NCBI GenBank assembly: GCA_937868725.1
Contig: CALMMQ010000116.1
Span: 1-51,078, forward strand
DNA: 51,078 nt
Source of the DNA: an uncultured Pleomorphomonas sp.
Lineage (GTDB): Bacteria; Pseudomonadota; Alphaproteobacteria; Rhizobiales; Pleomorphomonadaceae
Direction: 5' to 3'
The position numbers and the translations under genes were made by a program. Below are positions 14,734-43,412 of the stretch, in pieces (the stretch's first letter is position 1; every line of letters starts with the position of its first letter). Below the pieces are notes generated by a model. That model ran no database searches and had not been told where the DNA came from. It was given only the letters and a program-made list of their open reading frames with translations.

Positions 14734-15753
14734 TCAGGCGCCGCGCGGCGGCCGGGTGCTGTCGCGGAAGATCAGGTCGACCGGCCAGACCTCCTGGCAG
14801 TCGGCGACCGGCTTGCCGGCGATGACGTCCATCGCCAATTCGGCCACCCGGCTGCCGGCGCGGCGAATGGAGGAATAGGTCGTGGTCAGCGCCGGATGGT
14901 GGGCTTCCGGCCGCACCGAGTTGAGGCCGTCGTCGTGGGCGATGACCGAGATGTCGGCGCCGATGGCCAGCCCCCGGTCGCGGATGGCGCGGCAGCAGCC
15001 CATGGCGAGGAAAATCGACGAGCACAGGATGGCCGTCGGCGCCGCGTCGCCGTCGAGCATGCCACGCGTCAGGCGGTAGCCGGCCTCATCGGTCATGACG
15101 TCGGAGCCTTCGAGGCTCGGCGGCGCCGCCAGACCGCGCGCGGCGAGCGCCTGACGCCAGCCGGCGGCGCGGTGGACGGCAAAGGTCTGGCGCAGATCGC
15201 CGTTGACGAGACCGACGCGGCGATGGCCGAGGTCGAGCAGCAGATCGGTGGCGCGGCGAAACGCCCCCTCGTTGTCGATGTCGAGAAAGGCGCCGGCCGG
15301 CGGCGCGCCGGTGCGACCATGAACGACGTGCGGCAGACCGAGCTTGTCCAGCATGGCCAGGCGCCGGTCCTCGACCAGCGGGCTCGACAGCACGATGGCG
15401 TCGACCGACTTCTTGCGGGCGAGGCGGCGGTAGCAGGCCTCCTCGTCGTCAATGGCGGCGCCAACCAGAATGTCGACCTCGGCGCGGGCGGCGCGATCGG
15501 TCAGGCCGGACAGGAAATCGGTGAACAGCGGATCGAGCAGCGGCTCGCCGCCGGAGGGGAAGACGATGCCGATGGCCCCGGACTGGCCGGTGGCGAGACG
15601 GTGGGCGTTGGCGTTGGGGGCGTAGCCGAAGCGCTTGGCGGCGTCGCGGACGCGCTGACGCGTCTCCTCGCTGACATCCTGATAGCCGTTCAACGCCCGG
15701 CTGACCGTGCTCTGGGAAAGCTCCAGATGTCGCGACAGTTCCTTGAGATTCAT
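14734..15753 (-). CDS. LacI-family regulator of the alpha-glucoside phosphorylase locus
   Basis: 339 residues. The helix-turn-helix is LKELSRHLELSQSTVSRALNG (residues 3-23), with the hinge around AHRLATGQSGAIGIVFP. The effector-binding domain contains the CSSIFLAMGCCRAIRDRGL and DISVIAHDDGLNSV segments. It is divergent from the phosphorylase fusion at 16167. Two operator-like palindromes lie in the shared 413-bp interval (15829-15842 and 16108-16125), the second directly at the phosphorylase promoter, so simple repression relieved by an alpha-glucoside or its phosphate is the likely scheme. Confidence 0.92.
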   Translation of the reverse strand: MNLKELSRHLELSQSTVSRALNGYQDVSEETRQRVRDAAKRFGYAPNANAHRLATGQSGAIGIVFPSGGEPLLDPLFTDFLSGLTDRAARAEVDILVGAAIDDEEACYRRLARKKSVDAIVLSSPLVEDRRLAMLDKLGLPHVVHGRTGAPPAGAFLDIDNEGAFRRATDLLLDLGHRRVGLVNGDLRQTFAVHRAAGWRQALAARGLAAPPSLEGSDVMTDEAGYRLTRGMLDGDAAPTAILCSSIFLAMGCCRAIRDRGLAIGADISVIAHDDGLNSVRPEAHHPALTTTYSSIRRAGSRVAELAMDVIAGKPVADCQEVWPVDLIFRDSTRPPRGA

Positions 15754-15828: not shown

Positions 15829-15842
15829 CAAAAGCGCTTCTG
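15829..15842. promoter_or_regulatory. LacI-type operator, regulator-proximal copy
   Basis: CAAAAGCGCTTCTG differs by one base from the core CAAAAGCGCTTTTG of the palindrome at 16110-16123. It lies 76 bp upstream of the LacI start (15753), where it could mediate autoregulation or loop to the second site. The interval 15843-16079 shows no gene that I can support. Confidence 0.65.
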
Positions 15843-16079: not shown

Positions 16080-16125
16080 TTGACTCGCAATGGCCGCTTC
16101 AGCTATTACCAAAAGCGCTTTTGGT
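16080..16125 (+). promoter_or_regulatory. Promoter and operator of the GH65 fusion gene
   Basis: The -35 TTGACT (16080-16085) and -10 TATTAC (16104-16109) are separated by 18 bp. They abut and overlap a perfect 18-bp palindrome ACCAAAAGCGCTTTTGGT at 16108-16125. A repressor bound there would cover the transcription start. The site lies 42 bp before ATG 16167. Confidence 0.75.
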
Positions 16126-16166
16126 GAGCTGGTGAGGCCCAAAGTCAGTATATGGAAGGAGTGCCC

Positions 16167-19100
16167 ATGCGCGTCCCCCGGCTGACCCTGGATGACCTCA
16201 GGGCGCGCTTTGCCGAGCGCCCTGCGGCCCTTCTGGATATGGTCGAAGACATCGCCGCCCGCCTGTCCAGGTCAGGCGAGCCGGGCGGATTGCCGACGCC
16301 GATGGCCGCCGATGCCCTGAGAGCCGCCGCGCGGACGCTCCTGACCGACGCGCCCGATCCCGCCAGCCGGCCGCTTTGGGGCGTACCCTACGCGGTGAGC
16401 GATTCCATCGACGTCGCCGGCCTGCCGTCGATGGCCGGAGTGCCGGGCCTTGCCTACGTGACCGATTGCGACGCCGATCTGGTCGGCCGCCTCAAGGCCG
16501 CCGGTGCGCTTTTGGTCGGCAAGACGGGCCTCGCCAGTCCCGACCTTACGACGGCCAGTCCGGACACCGGCACCGCGATCGTCAACGGCTTCGTCGCCTT
16601 TACCGTTGGCATCAGCGCCCTCGACCACGCCGCCGGCACCGTCGTGTCGGTGCGGCCCAGTCCTGGCGACATCAGCACGGCCGGCATCTTCGCTTTTGCC
16701 CCCCACCTCGATCGCCTCGACATCGACGCCGCCGACCTTGGCACGGCCAGCGCCGTCCGGGTCGTCATCGCCGGCCATCGTGCCGGCCGCCCGGCCGGCG
16801 CGCTGCCCGCGCCGCTTCGGGTCGGCGTCGTCAAAGCCGATCGCCCGACCAGCGCACAGCTGGACCTGCGCGGCTGGTCGACCGTGGGAATCGAAGGCGC
16901 CATCTTCTCCGAACTGTCCGGCTGGCTGCGCGACGGCCCGTGGGCGGCCGAACGGCTCGTCGAACTCGAGACCGTCGTCGCCGAAGTACCGGACGTGTTT
17001 GAAGCGGTGATCGGCGCGCGGCTCGGCCGGGCGCGCGCGATGTCGGCCGCCGAGGTGTTCCGGGCCTACGAACGGCTCCGGCTGGCGCAGCGACGGCTCG
17101 CGGCCGCCGCCGCGACGTTCGACGTGCTGCTCGCCCCCGCCGCCCTGCCGCTCTCCGCCTGCGGCTGGGCTTCGGTGGCGGTACCGGTCACCGATCGCGA
17201 AAGCCCCGCCGCCTTGGCCTGGTTCGGGCCAGCGGGCAGCGACGACACGCTGGCCGAGATTGCCACTCTCTTCGCATCCTCCCCGTCGCCGGCGATGGCC
17301 ACCACCCCCCCTCGCCAACCCTCATCCCTGACCTCCCAGGAGACCGTCATGTCCGCCCATCCGCAGAGCAGCGTCCGCGCGCCGGCCCTTCCCACCCATC
17401 CCTGGCGCCTTGTCGAAACCCGCTTCGAGCCCGAGGCCAACCTGCTGCGCGAAACGCTGTTCGCCCTTGGCAACGGTCACATCGGCACACGCGGCAGCCA
17501 TGACGAGGACTGGCGCGGGGACGCCAGCGCCAGCATGGAAGGCACCTACATCAACGGCTTCTACGATACCGAAGCCATCCGCTATCCCGAGAACGCCTAC
17601 GGCTTCGCCCGCACCAACGAGTTCATGCTCAACGTGCCCAATGCCAAGGGTGTCACCATCCTGGTCGACGGCGAGCGTTTCAACCTTGCCGAGGGCGAGA
17701 TTGTCGCCTACGAGCGCCGGCTCGATTTCCGCGATGGCGTGCTGGTGCGCGTCGTCGACTGGACGTCGCCGGCCGGCAAGCGGCTGCGCATCGAGACGGC
17801 CCGTCTCGTCAGCCTCGCCCACAGCGCCATCCTGGCCCAGCGCACGCAAGTGACACCGCTCGACGGTCCGGCCAGCATCACCTTCATCGCCAGCATCGAC
17901 AGCCGCGTCGGCAACGTCGAGGCCGGCGACGATCCGCGCTTCGGTTCGAACGGAGCCGCCGGCGCACTCACCGCCGTCGACACCAGCCTGTCGGCCGGTC
18001 GGTCGGCGCTCGTCTCGCGCACGCGCCATTCCGGTTTGACGTTGCGCACCGAGACCTGGGCCAAGGCGACCGGCGGCGCCGCGCAGGCGCACGGCTTCGA
18101 GACGAACGACGGCCAGCTGCGGCAGACGTTCACGGTCGCCGCCGGGGCCGGCGAGACGGTCAGCCTGCAGAAACTGACGGCGATGGTGACGAGCCGCGAC
18201 CATCCGGCCGACGATCTGGCCGATCGCGCCGCTCAGGCCCTGTCGGCAGCCGAGGCCCTCGGGTTCGACGGCCTGGTCGCCGCCCAGCGCGCCGCCCTCG
18301 ACGCCTTCTGGGCCACGTCGGACATCGAGATTGCCGGCGACGACGCCTTGTCGCAGGGCCTGCACTTCAACCTCTTCCACCTGTTCCAGTCGGCCGGACG
18401 CGACGGCCACACCAACATCGCCGCCAAGGGACTGACCGGCGAGGGCTATGAAGGCCATTCGTTCTGGGACACCGAGATCTACGTGCTGCCGGTGTTCCTG
18501 CGCACCCATCCGGAGATCGCCCGCGCCCTGCTCTGCCACCGCATCGGCTATCTCGACAAGGCGCGCGAACGGGCCCGCGCCCTCGGTCACGACCACGGCG
18601 CCCTCTACCCCTGGCGGACGATCACCGGCGAGGAATGCTCGGCGTACTTCCCGGCCGGCACGGCGCAGTACCACATCAACGCCGACATCGCCTATGCCAT
18701 CAAGCAGTACGTCGACGCCACCGGCGACCTCAGCCTGCTGACGGAAGGCGGCGCCGAAGCCGTGTTCGAGACGGCGCGCATCTGGGCTGATCTCGCCCAT
18801 CTCGTCGACGACAGCTACCGCATCGACGAGGTGACGGGGCCGGACGAATACACCGCCCTCGTCAACAACAACTTCTACACCAACGTCATGGCCAAGACGC
18901 ACCTCGCCTTCGCCGTCGAGGTGGCCGAGCGCCTCGGCGCGGCGGCGCTGGCGCCGCTGATGGCCAGGCTGGCGCTCCGTCCGGACGAGATCGCCCATTG
19001 GGCCGACGTGTCGGACCGCCTGTACCTGCCCTACGACGAACGGCGCGGCATCCACGCCCAGGACGACGCCTTCCTGTCGCGCAAGGTGTGGGACTTCGCC

Positions 19101-20348
19101 AACGTGCCGCGCGAGAATTACCCGCTGCTGCTGCACTACCACCCGCTGGTCATCTACCGCCACCAAGTGTGCAAGCAGGCCGACGTGGTGCTGGCGTTGT
19201 TCCTGCGCGGCGACCTGTTCAGCCGGGCGCAGAAGCAACGCGATTTCGCCTATTACGAGCCGATCACCACTCACGATTCGTCGCTGTCAACCTGCATCCA
19301 CTCGATCATCGCCTCGGAGATCGGCCACCACCGTCAGGCCTACGACTTCTTCATGGACACCGTTCGCCTCGACATCGACAACACCCACGGCAACACCTTC
19401 CACGGCGTGCACACGGCGGCCATGGGCGGCGCCTGGATGGGGGTGGTGCACGGTTTTGCCGGCCTCCGGGCCGAAAACGGCGTACTGCGCTTCAATCCCT
19501 ACCTGCCGGCCGGCTGGAGCAAATACCGCTTCCGCCTCGTCGACCACGGCTGCACGCTCGAAATCACGGTGACGGCGGCAGCGGCCGAGTACCGGCTGGT
19601 GGCGGGCGCGGCCATGCGCATCTTCCATGCCGGCGTGGCCGTCGATCTCGACGCCGCGCAGCCGGTGGCCCGCCAGACGATCCGGCCGCCGTTCACCCGC
19701 CGACGCTTCAAGGCGGTGGTGTTCGACCTCGACGGCGTCATCACCGACACCGCCCGCTTCCACCATCTGGCCTGGAAGCGCCTCGCCGAGAGCATCGGCA
19801 TCGGCTTCGATGCCGAACTGGCCGAGAGCCTCAAGGGCATCGATCGCAAGACGTCGCTGGAGATGATCCTGGCGCGCGGCCACAAAGAGCTGCCCGAAGC
19901 CGAGAAGGCGCGCCTCGCCGATCTCAAGAACGACTGGTACAAGGAACTGATCGGTACCATGACCGAGGCCGACCTGCTGCCGGGGGCGGTGGCGACGCTG
20001 ACGGCGGTGCGCGCCGCCGGGCTCAAGATCGGCCTCGCCTCGGTGAGCCAGAACGCCCCCACCATCCTCAACCGCCTCGGCATCGCCGACCTGTTCGACG
20101 CCGTGGTCGACGCCCGCCTGCTCAAGCGCGGCAAGCCCGATCCGGAGATTTTCGTCAAGGCGGCCGAACAGCTCGGCGTCGCCGCCGCCGACTGCCTCGG
20201 CGTCGAGGACGCGGTGGCCGGCGTCGCCTCGATCAAGGGGGCCGGCATGCCGGCGCTCGGCATCGGCTCGCCCTCGGTGCTGACCGAGGCCGACGCGGTC
20301 ATCCCCGGGCTCGACGCCTTCGCGCTCGACGATTACCTCCTGGGCTGA
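16167..20348 (+). CDS. Pseudo-amidase / GH65 disaccharide phosphorylase / beta-phosphoglucomutase fusion
   Basis: 1393-residue open frame with three modules. Residues 1 to about 370 resemble amidase-signature enzymes of the allophanate hydrolase type (GVPYAVSDSIDVAGLP at 72-87, RLKAAGALLVGKT at 108-120). However, the catalytic Lys is Ser78 and the GGSSSGS segment with both catalytic serines is missing. Residues 395 to about 1170 are GH65, with general acid E894 in VTGPDEYT, and should phosphorolyse an alpha-glucoside (maltose, kojibiose, nigerose or trehalose class) to beta-glucose 1-phosphate. Residues about 1181-1393 are a HAD-type beta-phosphoglucomutase (FDLDGVITD, nucleophile D1187) giving glucose 6-phosphate. 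ATG 16167 has GGAAGGAG five bases upstream. An in-frame ATG at 17349, with its own AGGAG, could start a shorter GH65-PGM protein. Confidence 0.88.
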   Translation: MRVPRLTLDDLRARFAERPAALLDMVEDIAARLSRSGEPGGLPTPMAADALRAAARTLLTDAPDPASRPLWGVPYAVSDSIDVAGLPSMAGVPGLAYVTDCDADLVGRLKAAGALLVGKTGLASPDLTTASPDTGTAIVNGFVAFTVGISALDHAAGTVVSVRPSPGDISTAGIFAFAPHLDRLDIDAADLGTASAVRVVIAGHRAGRPAGALPAPLRVGVVKADRPTSAQLDLRGWSTVGIEGAIFSELSGWLRDGPWAAERLVELETVVAEVPDVFEAVIGARLGRARAMSAAEVFRAYERLRLAQRRLAAAAATFDVLLAPAALPLSACGWASVAVPVTDRESPAALAWFGPAGSDDTLAEIATLFASSPSPAMATTPPRQPSSLTSQETVMSAHPQSSVRAPALPTHPWRLVETRFEPEANLLRETLFALGNGHIGTRGSHDEDWRGDASASMEGTYINGFYDTEAIRYPENAYGFARTNEFMLNVPNAKGVTILVDGERFNLAEGEIVAYERRLDFRDGVLVRVVDWTSPAGKRLRIETARLVSLAHSAILAQRTQVTPLDGPASITFIASIDSRVGNVEAGDDPRFGSNGAAGALTAVDTSLSAGRSALVSRTRHSGLTLRTETWAKATGGAAQAHGFETNDGQLRQTFTVAAGAGETVSLQKLTAMVTSRDHPADDLADRAAQALSAAEALGFDGLVAAQRAALDAFWATSDIEIAGDDALSQGLHFNLFHLFQSAGRDGHTNIAAKGLTGEGYEGHSFWDTEIYVLPVFLRTHPEIARALLCHRIGYLDKARERARALGHDHGALYPWRTITGEECSAYFPAGTAQYHINADIAYAIKQYVDATGDLSLLTEGGAEAVFETARIWADLAHLVDDSYRIDEVTGPDEYTALVNNNFYTNVMAKTHLAFAVEVAERLGAAALAPLMARLALRPDEIAHWADVSDRLYLPYDERRGIHAQDDAFLSRKVWDFANVPRENYPLLLHYHPLVIYRHQVCKQADVVLALFLRGDLFSRAQKQRDFAYYEPITTHDSSLSTCIHSIIASEIGHHRQAYDFFMDTVRLDIDNTHGNTFHGVHTAAMGGAWMGVVHGFAGLRAENGVLRFNPYLPAGWSKYRFRLVDHGCTLEITVTAAAAEYRLVAGAAMRIFHAGVAVDLDAAQPVARQTIRPPFTRRRFKAVVFDLDGVITDTARFHHLAWKRLAESIGIGFDAELAESLKGIDRKTSLEMILARGHKELPEAEKARLADLKNDWYKELIGTMTEADLLPGAVATLTAVRAAGLKIGLASVSQNAPTILNRLGIADLFDAVVDARLLKRGKPDPEIFVKAAEQLGVAAADCLGVEDAVAGVASIKGAGMPALGIGSPSVLTEADAVIPGLDAFALDDYLLG
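17337..17351 (+). promoter_or_regulatory. Internal ribosome site and ATG at the GH65 domain boundary
   Basis: CCCAGGAGACCGTC precedes the in-frame ATG at 17349, exactly where the amidase-like region ends and GH65 homology begins (MSAHPQSS). The SD-like AGGAG is 5-10 bases from the ATG. This suggests the phosphorylase is also, or mainly, made without the N-terminal domain, and that the two were once separate genes now joined by loss of a stop codon. Confidence 0.6.
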
Positions 20349-20355
20349 CGGGCCG

Positions 20356-22527
20356 TCACAGCTCCAGCAGGAAGTAGGTGGTCGGGCCGGCGGGCGTGTC
20401 GTTGGACAGACGAAAACGCACCGGCCCGCTGCCGCTGGCCATTGCCGCGTGGACGACGCCGTCGAGGCCGACGGGGCTGAGCTTCCAGGCCGGCGAGGCG
20501 CGATCGAGGCTGATGTCGGCGCTGCCGGCCCGGATCAGCACCGGCAGGTGGCCGAAATCGTCGATCACCCGCTCGCCGCCGTCGCGGAAGCGCATGTCGG
20601 TGTTGCGGGCGTCGGTGGCGAAGATGAGCAGCAGGCGCCTGGCGCGGTCGAGCGGCGCCTCACCGTCGATGGACGACAGCGCCAGCAGCGCGCCACCGTC
20701 GGCGGTGTCGATGCGCAGGCGCCCGAGAGCCAACGGGGCGCGCAAGGCCGGAAACACCGCCGCCTCGGTCATCGGCGTGACGAGGCGCACCGTGCCGCTG
20801 CCGACGTCGAGCGTTATCTCGCCGGTGTCGCTTTCGAGGCGATGGCTGGCCAGATCGGTGAGGTTGCCGGCCGTCACCGCGCCGCGCTGGCGCAGCGCCG
20901 CCAGGAGTGCCTCGGGTTGGCTGGCGGCGCGCGGCAGACCGATGGCGAGGGGATTGCCGGCCGTGGCGGCCGGCGGCGCGAGGCCGATGCGCGACAATAG
21001 CGCCAGCTGCGTCAGCCGATCGGGTTCGGTCGTCTCCATGCCGCCGACGGGCTCGGGACCGAGGGCGAAGGGCAGCGTGGCGTGGGCCGTCGCCACGTCG
21101 CCGCGCCGGAACAGCAGCGCCGCCAGCGTTTCGCCGGCTCGCGCCACCGGATCGAGGGCGATGGCGTAGGGCAGCATGGCGCGCTTGTGCGGAAACGGCT
21201 CGCCGTAGGCGAGGACGATCGGCCCGTGACCGTGACGGCAGAGGCCGTCCCAGCCCTGCAGCGCGGCGTAGGCCGGCATGACCAGCCCGGCCTCGTAGCG
21301 GAAGCGGTTCCAGAACAGGTGGTCGTACTCGGTGACGACGAACGGCTGGCCGAGCCAGCGGCTGGCGGCGGCAAGGCGGATGTAGCGGACGCCGTCGGCG
21401 ATCGAGCTCGTCTGTTCGAGCCGGCTGCCCGGCGCGTAGCCGCTGGCCCAGTCGTGGTAGGTGTTGATGGTGACGACATCGAGGCCCTGCCGCGATAGGG
21501 CGGTCTGCTCGGTCGGCCAATTGTTGTAGCTCGTCACCAGACCGCGATAGCCGAGGGCGCGCAGCGCCTCGGTCTGGCGGGCGGTGGCGGTGCGTTCGAG
21601 CGCGACGACAAAGCGCGCCATGTCGCGACCGCGGCCGTCGTCGGCGCGGCGGTCGCCGGGGAGGCGCACCGTGCCGTCTTCGAGGCGTTCGCCGGCCGCG
21701 AGACCGCCCCAGGCGGCGGCAAGGGCCGTCGTGTCGGCGTAATGCGCCTTCAGCCAGTCATTGAACGGGGCGGCGAGCAGCGCGTCGTAGGGCGGCGCGC
21801 CGTTGCCGTGCCGCAGCACGCTGTCGAATTCGACGCCGTTCTCGTTGACCAGAACCACCAGCGCCAGCGCTGCGTCGCGGATGGGGGCAAGGCCGGTGTA
21901 GGGATTGACGCGGGCAAGGAACCGCTCCTGGAAGGTGCGCCAATGCTGGAAGGCCGCCTCGTCGAGGGACAGGCGCAGCTTGAAGTCGCTGACCGGGTCC
22001 CAGCGGTCGTCGTGATCGCCGAAGGCGCCGCGCCAGGACGTCATGCCGTCGATGATCCAGGCGATACCGTTGCGCTTCAGGGCGGCGAGCAGATAGTCGA
22101 CGCGGTCGAGCGTCTCCGGATCGAAGTCGAAATCCTTGGCGCGGCCGTTCATCAGGCTGGCGTCGACGAAATGCAGGCGGGCAATGTCGTAGCCGTGCAG
22201 GGCCAGCTGGCGGGCGTAGGCATCGGCGCCGGCGTGATCGGGAAAGCCACCGGAGGCCGGGCTCCAGGCCAGCGAAGCGCACATCAGGCGCAGCGGCCGA
22301 TCGGGCGCGTCGGCGCGCACCAGATGGCCGTCGGGGCTGGCGATGATGCGGCTTGCCGGCGTCAGCGCCGGATTGGGCAGGAGAGCGGAGAAGTCGAGCG
22401 GACTGCCCGGAGACAGCGCCAGCGACACCTCGCGCACCGGCAGCCAGCGATCGCCGGCCGGCACGGCCGATGGCCCGAGAGCGAGCAGCAGCGCCGCGGC
22501 GGCGACGATGCCAGCCGGCCGCGTCAT
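20356..22527 (-). CDS. Secreted clan GH-A-like glycoside hydrolase of the exopolysaccharide cluster
   Basis: 723 residues. An N-terminal signal peptide (TRPAGIVAAAALLLALGPSAVPA) indicates export. A TIM-barrel hydrolase region follows: LVNENGVEFDSVL holds the Asn-Glu acid/base pair and VVTEYDHLFWNRF a plausible nucleophile Glu, the usual clan GH-A arrangement. The C-terminal 200 residues look beta-rich. I cannot name the GH family. ATG 22527 overlaps the stop of the glycosyltransferase by ATGA, so it is the last gene of that operon. A polymer-trimming or polysaccharide-release role is inferred from position, by analogy with hydrolases in other exopolysaccharide operons. Confidence 0.78.
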   Translation of the reverse strand: MTRPAGIVAAAALLLALGPSAVPAGDRWLPVREVSLALSPGSPLDFSALLPNPALTPASRIIASPDGHLVRADAPDRPLRLMCASLAWSPASGGFPDHAGADAYARQLALHGYDIARLHFVDASLMNGRAKDFDFDPETLDRVDYLLAALKRNGIAWIIDGMTSWRGAFGDHDDRWDPVSDFKLRLSLDEAAFQHWRTFQERFLARVNPYTGLAPIRDAALALVVLVNENGVEFDSVLRHGNGAPPYDALLAAPFNDWLKAHYADTTALAAAWGGLAAGERLEDGTVRLPGDRRADDGRGRDMARFVVALERTATARQTEALRALGYRGLVTSYNNWPTEQTALSRQGLDVVTINTYHDWASGYAPGSRLEQTSSIADGVRYIRLAAASRWLGQPFVVTEYDHLFWNRFRYEAGLVMPAYAALQGWDGLCRHGHGPIVLAYGEPFPHKRAMLPYAIALDPVARAGETLAALLFRRGDVATAHATLPFALGPEPVGGMETTEPDRLTQLALLSRIGLAPPAATAGNPLAIGLPRAASQPEALLAALRQRGAVTAGNLTDLASHRLESDTGEITLDVGSGTVRLVTPMTEAAVFPALRAPLALGRLRIDTADGGALLALSSIDGEAPLDRARRLLLIFATDARNTDMRFRDGGERVIDDFGHLPVLIRAGSADISLDRASPAWKLSPVGLDGVVHAAMASGSGPVRFRLSNDTPAGPTTYFLLEL

Positions 22528-23555
22528 GGCCGGCCGTCCCGGACAATGGCGCTCTCGATGGCGCCCCCGGGCGGGCGGCGGGGCGACAGCAAGCCGACCG
22601 GCAACGCGGCGGCGTGGAACAGCCAGGTGACCAGCGTGTACAGGCCCATGCGGACGCCGCGCTTGCGCCAGACGAGCAGGGCGAAAACGGCGAGCAGCAG
22701 AGCGACGGCAAGGGCCAGCGCCAGCCCCTTGTCGGGCACGGCCACGAGCAGCAGCAGCGTCAGCGCCCACCAGACATAGACCATGCTCCAGAGCCGGAGT
22801 TCGGGCAGCTCGCGCCACAGCGTCGTGAGATAGGGCTGGCCGCAAGCGGCGCGAACCAGTTCGCCGATGCCCATCAGGTAGCGGCTCTTCCAGCGCCGCG
22901 CCAGCAGGCGATAGGAGTTGCCGGTGTGGCCGAAATGGCGGACGAAGCAGCGGTCGAGGCGCGTCAGGTGCCAGCCGGCGGCGCGCAGGCGGATGCCAAG
23001 CTCATATTCCTCATAGCCGTGCAGGTTGCGGTCGGTGAGATAGCCGACGCTGTCGATGGCGGCGCGACGGTAAAGGCCGCCGCCGTTCATGCGGTCGATG
23101 TCGCCGATGCGGTTCTCCGGCGCGGCGCGGGTGACGCGGCGGGCGTATTCGAGATTGGCGGTCTGCATTTCCTCGACGTGGCCGGTAACGCCGGCCAACG
23201 TCGGGTCGGCGGCGAGCGCGGCCAGCGCGTCGGCAACAAAGGACGGATCGAGCAGCATGTCGCCGTCCATGACGCAGACGTAATCGCCACGGGCGTACTG
23301 GAACCCCATCTGCGGGCCGAGACCACAGCTGCCGCGGGCCGGCGGCCTGACCTCGACGACCAGCACCGGGTAGGTGGCGGCGATGGCGGTGGTGTCGTCG
23401 GTCGAGCCGCTGTCGGCGACGATCACCTCGCCGTCGCGGCCGGCCAGCGCCGTCAGGGCGCTGTCGATGGCGGCGCCGATGCGCTTTGCCTCGTTGAGGG
23501 TCTTGATGATCACCGAAACGGTCAATGGTACCTCCGCCTCGCCTCTGCTGGTCAT
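22524..23555 (-). CDS. Glycosyltransferase family 2 protein with C-terminal membrane segments
   Basis: About 343 residues. The GT2 domain starts with VSVIIKTLNEAKRIGAAI, includes the nucleotide-binding ADSGSTDDT region and a DxD-type motif in VMDGDMLLD, and has the acceptor-side motif NLHGYEEYELGIRLRAAG (an ED-like motif). At least two hydrophobic segments follow (ALTLLLLVAVPDKGLALALAVALLLAVFALLV). It adds a sugar to the growing repeat unit on the inner membrane. The start is uncertain: ATG 23555 has no ribosome site, whereas TTG 23525 has CGGAGG eight bases upstream and starts just at the GT2 domain. It overlaps the hydrolase gene by 4 bp. Confidence 0.88.
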   Translation of the reverse strand: MTSRGEAEVPLTVSVIIKTLNEAKRIGAAIDSALTALAGRDGEVIVADSGSTDDTTAIAATYPVLVVEVRPPARGSCGLGPQMGFQYARGDYVCVMDGDMLLDPSFVADALAALAADPTLAGVTGHVEEMQTANLEYARRVTRAAPENRIGDIDRMNGGGLYRRAAIDSVGYLTDRNLHGYEEYELGIRLRAAGWHLTRLDRCFVRHFGHTGNSYRLLARRWKSRYLMGIGELVRAACGQPYLTTLWRELPELRLWSMVYVWWALTLLLLVAVPDKGLALALAVALLLAVFALLVWRKRGVRMGLYTLVTWLFHAAALPVGLLSPRRPPGGAIESAIVRDGRP

Positions 23556-42401: not shown

Positions 42402-43412
42402 GTGGCTACCATTTTCGACGTCGCGCGCCATGCCGCGGTTTCGACATCGACGGTATCGCATGTCGTCAACGGCACGCGGAAAGTCAGCGCCGAGACGGCG
42501 CGGCGGGTACAGGAGGCGATCGCCGCCGTCGGCTACACGCCCAACGGCATCGCCCGTGCCCTGGCGGTCTCGACGACCAACAGCGTCGGCATCGCCGTGT
42601 CGACCATCACCAACCCCTATTTCGGCGACATCATCTGCGCCATCGAGCGCGAATGCACGCGGCTCGGGTTGATGGTGTTCCTGTCCGATACCCACGACGA
42701 CCCCGAACACGAGCTGCGCGTCGTCAAGGCGCAGCACCTGCGCCGCGTCGACGGCATCATCCTGGCGCCGTCGGAGACCGGCGACAGCGAGACGCTGAAC
42801 TACATCGAGGCCAACAAGATCCCCTGCGTCCTGGTCGACCGCCTGACCTCGACCAAGTTCGACCGCGTCGGCATCCAGAACCGGCACGCCATGGGGCTGG
42901 TGGTCGACCACCTTGCCGATCATGGCCACCAGCGCATCGGCTTCATTTCCGGTCAACCGGGCTTTGCCACGGCCATCGAGCGCACCGAGGGCTTCCGCGC
43001 GGCGCTGTCCGAGCGCGGCCTCGCCGTCGACGAGGCGCTGATCCGCAGCGGCGACAGCATCGACGGCGCGGCGGCGGCCGCCGCCGAACTGCTGGCGCGG
43101 CCCGATCGTCCGTCGGCGCTGGCAGTCGGCAACAACATGTCGATGATCGGCGTCATGCGGGCCATCCGCTCGGCCGGCCTCAGCGTGCCCGGGGACATTG
43201 CCCTGGTCGGCTTCGACGATTTCGAATGGGCCGACTGCTTCGAGCCGCGCCTCACCGTCATCGCCCAGCCGGTGGAAGAGATCGGTCGCAAGGCCGCTGA
43301 ACTGCTGGTCCGCCGCATCGCCGCCGACCAGAGCGAGGAACCGCTGAAGCCGCAGATCATCCGCCTCAAGCCGACGCTGGTGATCCGCGAATCCTGTGGC
43401 TGCCGCGCCTGA
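42402..43412 (+). CDS. LacI-family regulator of the doubled importer
   Basis: 336 residues beginning with GTG 42402 (GAGAGGT upstream). The helix-turn-helix is TIFDVARHAAVSTSTVSHVVNG (residues 3-24), the hinge follows at PNGIARALAVSTTNSVGI, and the effector domain ends with IALVGFDDFEWADCFEPRLTVIAQP. A longer open frame back to 42246 has no homology and poor start signals. It lies 152 bp after fucU in the same direction. The palindromes at 34112-34125 and 34441-34459 are candidate targets at the head of the importer operon. Confidence 0.92.
   Translation: MATIFDVARHAAVSTSTVSHVVNGTRKVSAETARRVQEAIAAVGYTPNGIARALAVSTTNSVGIAVSTITNPYFGDIICAIERECTRLGLMVFLSDTHDDPEHELRVVKAQHLRRVDGIILAPSETGDSETLNYIEANKIPCVLVDRLTSTKFDRVGIQNRHAMGLVVDHLADHGHQRIGFISGQPGFATAIERTEGFRAALSERGLAVDEALIRSGDSIDGAAAAAAELLARPDRPSALAVGNNMSMIGVMRAIRSAGLSVPGDIALVGFDDFEWADCFEPRLTVIAQPVEEIGRKAAELLVRRIAADQSEEPLKPQIIRLKPTLVIRESCGCRA

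Follow-up and report, generated by a model that had tools for sequence, protein, structure and literature searches.

The window analyzed here is positions 1–51,078 of contig CALMMQ010000116.1 (51,078 nucleotides, nt) from an uncultured Pleomorphomonas sp. (GCA_937868725.1, a draft assembly of 128 contigs). It carries a single open reading frame (ORF) at 16152–20348 on the forward strand (mechanical ORF call), in which Pfam recognizes Amidase, Glyco_hydro_65N, Glyco_hydro_65m, Glyco_hydro_65C and HAD hydrolase domains. An initial annotation of this DNA had described one uninterrupted frame with amidase-like, GH65 and HAD phosphoglucomutase parts starting at 16167, and both the ORF call and the Pfam and NCBIfam matches agree with that description. 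The true start is most likely the ATG at 16167, because a purine-rich GGAG or GGGG, followed by TGCC or TACC, directly precedes it both in the window and in all 12 relatives that have the genes. Based on the comparison of these genomes, we propose that the locus is probably a LacI-controlled phosphorolysis operon of Pleomorphomonas, in which a dead amidase (the pseudo-amidase, gene 1) would act as a non-catalytic partner of a trehalose-splitting phosphorylase fused to a beta-phosphoglucomutase (the GH65-mutase, gene 2). The features of the locus are listed in Table 1.

Table 1. Features of the pseudo-amidase and GH65-mutase locus in the window
Feature	Position	Strand	Basis or remark
Divergent LacI-family regulator gene	14734..15753	-	LacI and Peripla_BP_3 above cut-off
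Imperfect operator-like site near LacI start, CAAAAGCGCTTCTG	15829..15842		281 nt before the exact operator; weak
Perfect palindromic putative operator, CAAAAGCGCTTTTG	16110..16123		Immediately 5' of the pseudo-amidase
Shine-Dalgarno AAGGAG of the pseudo-amidase	16156..16161	+	Purine-rich site likewise placed in 12/12 relatives
Pseudo-amidase region: amidase domain of the allophanate-hydrolase type, catalytic residues missing	16167..17345	+	Pfam, NCBIfam, alignment, predicted fold
Codon at the catalytic Lys position, AGC (Ser)	16398..16400	+	Lys in 36/36 reference amidases, 0/13 pseudo-amidases
Junction lacking a stop codon and the C-terminal tail conserved in the relatives; frame open into GH65	17260..17348	+	Comparison with relatives
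Shine-Dalgarno AGGAG of the GH65-mutase gene, within the fused frame	17338..17342	+	GGAGAC at the equivalent place in 12/12 relatives
GH65-mutase gene, 999 amino acids, own ATG (relatives: GTG)	17349..20348	+	72–76% identity in 12/12 relatives
GH65 N-terminal, catalytic and C-terminal domains; loop-3 triplet SAY	17415..19646	+	Pfam and motif alignment
Beta-phosphoglucomutase domain	19707..20267	+	TIGR01990, 237 bits against a cut-off of 189

The comparison set consisted of 13 congener genomes, which with the window's own genome make 14 genus genomes. Twelve of the 13 congeners encode the module, with an amidase-like protein 35–39% identical to that of the window and an adjoining GH65-mutase 72–76% identical; the congener G005 has neither gene and gave weaker matches only, among them fragments of HAD type and a frame that, at 632 codons, is as long as an allophanate hydrolase gene. 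A stop codon separates the two genes in all 12 relatives, and it is followed after 39–85 nt by a GGAG-type Shine-Dalgarno sequence and the GTG of the GH65 gene (12/12). The window keeps a Shine-Dalgarno sequence and an ATG (17349) for the GH65 gene, and has no gene 1 stop codon at the junction. The C-terminal tail of the relatives' proteins (STRPIDI...SSPLAHR) was found, by eye, in none of the three frames of the window before the GH65 start. Since the stop is present in every relative with the module and both tail and stop are gone in the window, the joined frame is private to the window's genome among the 14; judging from the retained signals, translation of a free GH65-mutase can still begin at 17349. 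A conserved three-domain fusion is rejected on the intergenic stop in the 12 relatives, and a single frameshift as the origin of the open junction on the absence of the tail from every frame (by eye). The triple fusion, presented in the initial annotation as a biological unit, is therefore abandoned: all 12 relatives keep the genes separate, and only the window has a single frame.

To compare active sites, we drew on a contig scan for the pseudo-amidase that used two conserved peptides, by which divergent members can be missed; 80 loci were kept, and 36 reference amidases were picked from the 70 that are not pseudo-amidase loci, largely for intact motifs (L089 and L133 were left out). In the window, the catalytic Lys position is Ser (AVSD) and the GGSSSGS stretch is absent, as had been read from the sequence before and as the alignment confirms. 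Catalytic Lys and the nucleophile Ser are each found in 0/13 pseudo-amidases versus 36/36 references, while the cis-Ser column holds Ser in seven of the 13, the window not among them, and in 36/36 references; the Ser-cisSer-Lys triad of amidase-signature (AS) enzymes is thus missing. GGSSSGS, previously said to hold both catalytic serines, holds the cis-Ser only, with the nucleophile 24 residues further on in TDTAGSGR (counted on the alignment), a spacing that matches the malonamidase mutants S131A and S155C. All 13 pseudo-amidases retain the WxAER Arg and have lost the LLY Tyr; a 22-residue loop before the cis-Ser position is deleted, together with two further shared deletions. These losses indicate that the amidase region is catalytically dead, as had been supposed.

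Pfam Amidase (PF01425) scores above its gathering threshold (E 2e-15) but covers only 79 residues (49–127), and the top NCBIfam match of the N-terminal part is the allophanate hydrolase TIGR02713 at 111 bits, far below the cut-off of 511. The structure check suggested at the outset turned out favorably, as an amidase fold is predicted with confidence, which together with the PF01425 match places the protein in the AS fold family. In the 12 relatives, gene 1 has 381–389 codons versus 595 with AH_C in L069, so that the C-terminal second-step domain of allophanate hydrolases is lacking, as is an equivalog score for TIGR02713. On sequence grounds, we regard the pseudo-amidase as an allophanate hydrolase amidase domain that has lost its active site. 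Its exact sister among these enzymes is unsure because branches are long (1.49 for the window) and the forks below the pseudo-amidase clade are open or have weak support, in a tree built with 38 of the 70 loci that are not pseudo-amidases. AtzE/AtzG-type complexes and GatA subunits retain the catalytic triad. The pseudo-amidase resembles them (PDB 6c62, 3kfu) in that they are AS proteins working in complexes, according to the entry titles, but its triad is gone and its proposed partner is a sugar phosphorylase. Compared with allophanate hydrolases (AtzF and the DUR1,2 amidase domain; PDB 4cp8, 4gyr, 4iss), it lacks catalytic Lys and nucleophile Ser, carries loop deletions, and is encoded by a gene that stops after the amidase domain. 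Four of the 14 genus genomes (G003:C19, G005:C5, G007:C147 and G012:C1) also yield a match in a frame as long as an allophanate hydrolase gene (595–641 codons), and L090, one such longer amidase from the genus, keeps Lys and GGSSSGS; the same homologue search gave no second amidase-like match in the window's own genome.

Selection on the two genes was estimated as the ratio of nonsynonymous to synonymous divergence (dN/dS). For all 66 pairs of relatives it was 0.21–0.43 for the pseudo-amidase (median 0.30) and 0.07–0.26 for the GH65-mutase (median 0.11), and for the 12 pairs that include the window 0.39–0.60 and 0.18–0.38, with bootstrap upper limits of 0.52–0.79 for gene 1 in the four window pairs tested. 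The window pairs are the most diverged, with a GH65 dN of 0.18–0.21 against at most 0.11 in any pair of relatives. Their gene 1/gene 2 dN ratio of 3.0–3.6 falls within that of the 23 most diverged pairs of relatives (2.8–3.7; 1.9–18.2 with a median of 3.6 over all 66), so that no acceleration is evident in the window copy, although it may have begun to decay very recently. Purifying selection combined with a shared loss of catalytic residues marks a maintained pseudoenzyme, and these estimates suggest that the pseudo-amidase is maintained across the genus. Occurrence of the N-terminal region with the same missing residues in other genomes had been named in advance as support for this, and it was found in 12 relatives; the option of a decaying gene is disfavored by dN/dS and by the equal relative rates.

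The LacI gene lies upstream and divergent in 12/12 relatives (69.5–75.5% identical), and the closest homologue in G005 reaches 49%. The exact palindrome CAAAAGCGCTTTTG occurs at one place per genome, always at this operon, in 13 of the 14 genus genomes; it is absent from G005, which is without the module, and its backward-read control pattern is found in no genus genome. A second site, AAAGCGCTT, lies 151–162 nt LacI-ward of the exact operator in 10/12 relatives (none in G003 and G006). The second operator-like site of the window is weak because its 9-mer recurs twice elsewhere in that stretch. LacI would be expected to bind these operator sites. The outer neighbors vary: a frame of 491–493 amino acids (aa) lies downstream on the other strand in 9/12 relatives (by frame length), followed in eight of those nine by frames of 94–96 and 563–564 aa. 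We therefore delimit the unit as LacI, operator, pseudo-amidase and GH65-mutase.

The GH65-mutase contains all three GH65 domains (PF03636, PF03632 and PF03633 at 217.7, 409.5 and 56.3 bits, each above cut-off) and the beta-phosphoglucomutase equivalog TIGR01990 of NCBIfam (237.3 bits; cut-off 189.4). Among the motifs given in PMC8537180, the loop-3 triplet is HNE in maltose, TPK in kojibiose and SAY in trehalose phosphorylase, and the correlated-position motif of trehalose phosphorylase is TRIGPP. The triplet is SAY in 13/13 GH65-mutases, and the equivalents of CsKP 392, 394 and 585 are R, I and P, matching TRIGPP. In these respects the protein is like a GH65 trehalose phosphorylase, from which it differs by its fusion to beta-phosphoglucomutase and by A at 402, and its activity is predicted. 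Trehalase PF01204 was found in 0/14 genus genomes and OtsA PF00982 in 2/14, other trehalose enzymes not having been searched for, so a phosphorolytic route for trehalose is conceivable. From the motifs, the predicted substrate is most likely trehalose.

Outside the genus, a GH65-mutase in a single frame exists on a Niveispirillum replicon (N. cyanobacteriorum; 46–47% identical), the only full-length match among 289 class genomes besides the window's own. The two enzymes stand side by side in E. coli (ycjT and pgmB, separate), and fusion of GH65 to the mutase does not by itself set the window apart. At L161, a GH65/beta-phosphoglucomutase locus, no amidase-like gene is present in the five neighboring frames scanned, which include LacI and a TonB receptor. 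All 10 pseudo-amidase loci of the contig scan come from the genus and each dead gene is paired with GH65; the other 70, including L090, a true genus amidase, have no GH65 within their flanks (up to 8 kb, often shorter at contig ends). A GGSS-type motif is present in 67 of those 70, with no pattern match in L089 (a short frame), L133 and L142. Among 297 genomes of the order, with at most six candidates scored per genome, matches at E ≤1e-130 come from the genus only, and the next-best (3e-58 and 8e-49) fall in frames with lengths of 625 and 601 codons, respectively. Neither AS pseudoenzymes nor an amidase beside a GH65 phosphorylase were found in the open-license literature, which excludes most subscription papers. 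The combination that the initial annotation considered undescribed is thus shared in its GH65-mutase part (with 12/12 relatives and Niveispirillum), and its dead-amidase neighbor, a maintained pseudoenzyme beside a sugar phosphorylase, is unmatched in that literature.

In the relatives, conservation is unusually high at the end of gene 1. The last 25 codons have a synonymous identity of 0.84–0.88 versus 0.43–0.68 in other 20-codon blocks, and several AT-ending codons are kept there though the loci are 61–70% GC. A conserved block (CCGrTTGACATC, CCGTTGGCTC) lies approximately 50–125 nt upstream of the GH65 start, and about 60–75 nt spanning the gene 1 stop are conserved at the nucleic-acid level in relatives L056–L067 (e.g., L064:4398-4562) and missing in the window. 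The tail block can pair with the intergenic region as RNA. Both candidate helices beat versions slid by 1–3 columns, as is usual for consensus-derived structures, but their pair counts are no better than column shuffles, with no covariation beyond these, so that the pairing is unproven; individual foldings disagree. Rfam gave no match above gathering score in the window, L056 or L064. A promoter in the block was rejected, as several species do not retain a sigma-54-like -12 element (by eye) and a sigma-70 consensus scan of one relative gave no match.

Based on these findings, we suggest that binding of an inducer would release LacI from the single operator, and both genes would be made together. 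The GH65 part would split trehalose (most likely) with phosphate into glucose and beta-glucose 1-phosphate, which the mutase part would convert to glucose 6-phosphate. The pseudo-amidase would be an assembly, stabilizing or ligand-sensing subunit of the enzyme; a partner role is suggested by constant adjacency, joint presence or absence, the shared operator, the maintained fold and the natural fusion, and it may be a scaffold or oligomerization domain, as first supposed. In the window lineage, loss of the stop means that translation of gene 1 would run into gene 2 and give a fusion of 1393 residues, and the retained Shine-Dalgarno sequence and ATG should still give the free 999-residue enzyme. 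Several points weigh against this proposal. Constraint on gene 1 is moderate, its median dN/dS being nearly three times that of gene 2, and the window pairs reach the highest values; part of it acts on nucleic acid, given the conserved synonymous sites of the last 25 codons. The C-terminal tail is predicted to be disordered in the P. oryzae protein and is dispensable at least in the window, which lost it. At CsKP 402, A stands for the G of TRIGPP, and the alignment leaves 64 and 416 unsettled; the substrate is predicted from motifs only, and interaction, activity and expression of the two proteins are hypothetical.

The joined frame could be an assembly or sequencing error, the genes being separate in the window too. 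It occurs in one genome only, a draft, and two features of the sequence would suit this explanation: an out-of-frame TGA (17329–17331) shortly ahead of the GH65 ribosome-binding site, and seven consecutive C (17305–17311); it is nevertheless rather unlikely, as a one-base error alone does not account for a tail that, by eye, is in no frame. If instead gene 1 were a slowly decaying relic, a hitchhiker inactivated after capture by the operon, the window fusion would be a further step of decay. The loss of Lys and nucleophile Ser in 13/13, the absent C-terminal domain, the roughly threefold faster evolution of gene 1 and the loss of tail and stop in the window would all fit, but frames stay open in 13/13 genomes, dN/dS is below 1 with the bootstrap limits given above, the window copy shows no acceleration, and ribosome-binding site and operator are conserved, which makes a relic the least probable of these explanations.

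Gene 1 might also be kept mainly as a translated leader, whose translation would couple or tune that of the GH65-mutase through a nucleic-acid element near its stop. The raised synonymous identity, the kept AT-ending codons and the potential pairing of the upstream block, with helices better than slid versions, point this way; we consider it unlikely, since purifying selection and the confidently predicted fold extend along gene 1, helix pair counts equal those of shuffles, foldings disagree, and the block is absent from the window, whose operon is otherwise kept. The emptied pocket could also serve as a ligand-binding sensor or LacI co-factor that signals to regulator or enzyme rather than holding the enzyme together. 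Fold and WxAER Arg are kept while Lys, nucleophile Ser and LLY Tyr are lost in all 13 proteins, and the LacI gene lies at the same locus, with a single exact operator in each genome; on the other hand, the pocket ligand is hypothetical, LacI-family proteins sense their own ligand, and the loop deletions may leave no pocket, so that we give this idea little credit, slightly less than the leader. Within the preferred reading of a non-catalytic partner, a stricter version is tentative and rather doubtful: the dead domain would be an obligate subunit of the trehalose phosphorylase-mutase, the conserved tail would dock in most of the genus, and the fusion would replace the tail in the window lineage. 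The window lineage seems to be a natural fusion experiment, by which a direct partnership is testable against the separate-gene relatives, and the role of the dead enzyme is cleanly testable, given a small module that one congener lacks altogether and that carries a single exact operator in each genome.

As for the surroundings, the downstream frames of the relative G013 correspond to an HWE histidine kinase, KaiB and a KaiC-like protein, a clock-like cluster (L056:3570-7036, forward strand) that is absent at the window's locus. At 20356–22845 on the reverse strand, the window has an 829-aa frame beside two glycosyltransferases, with GH42 and cellulase matches that are sub-threshold only. Two further LacI-family genes are encoded in the window, at 1774–2766 and 42417–43325, both on the forward strand, 29% and 30% identical to the LacI of the module.

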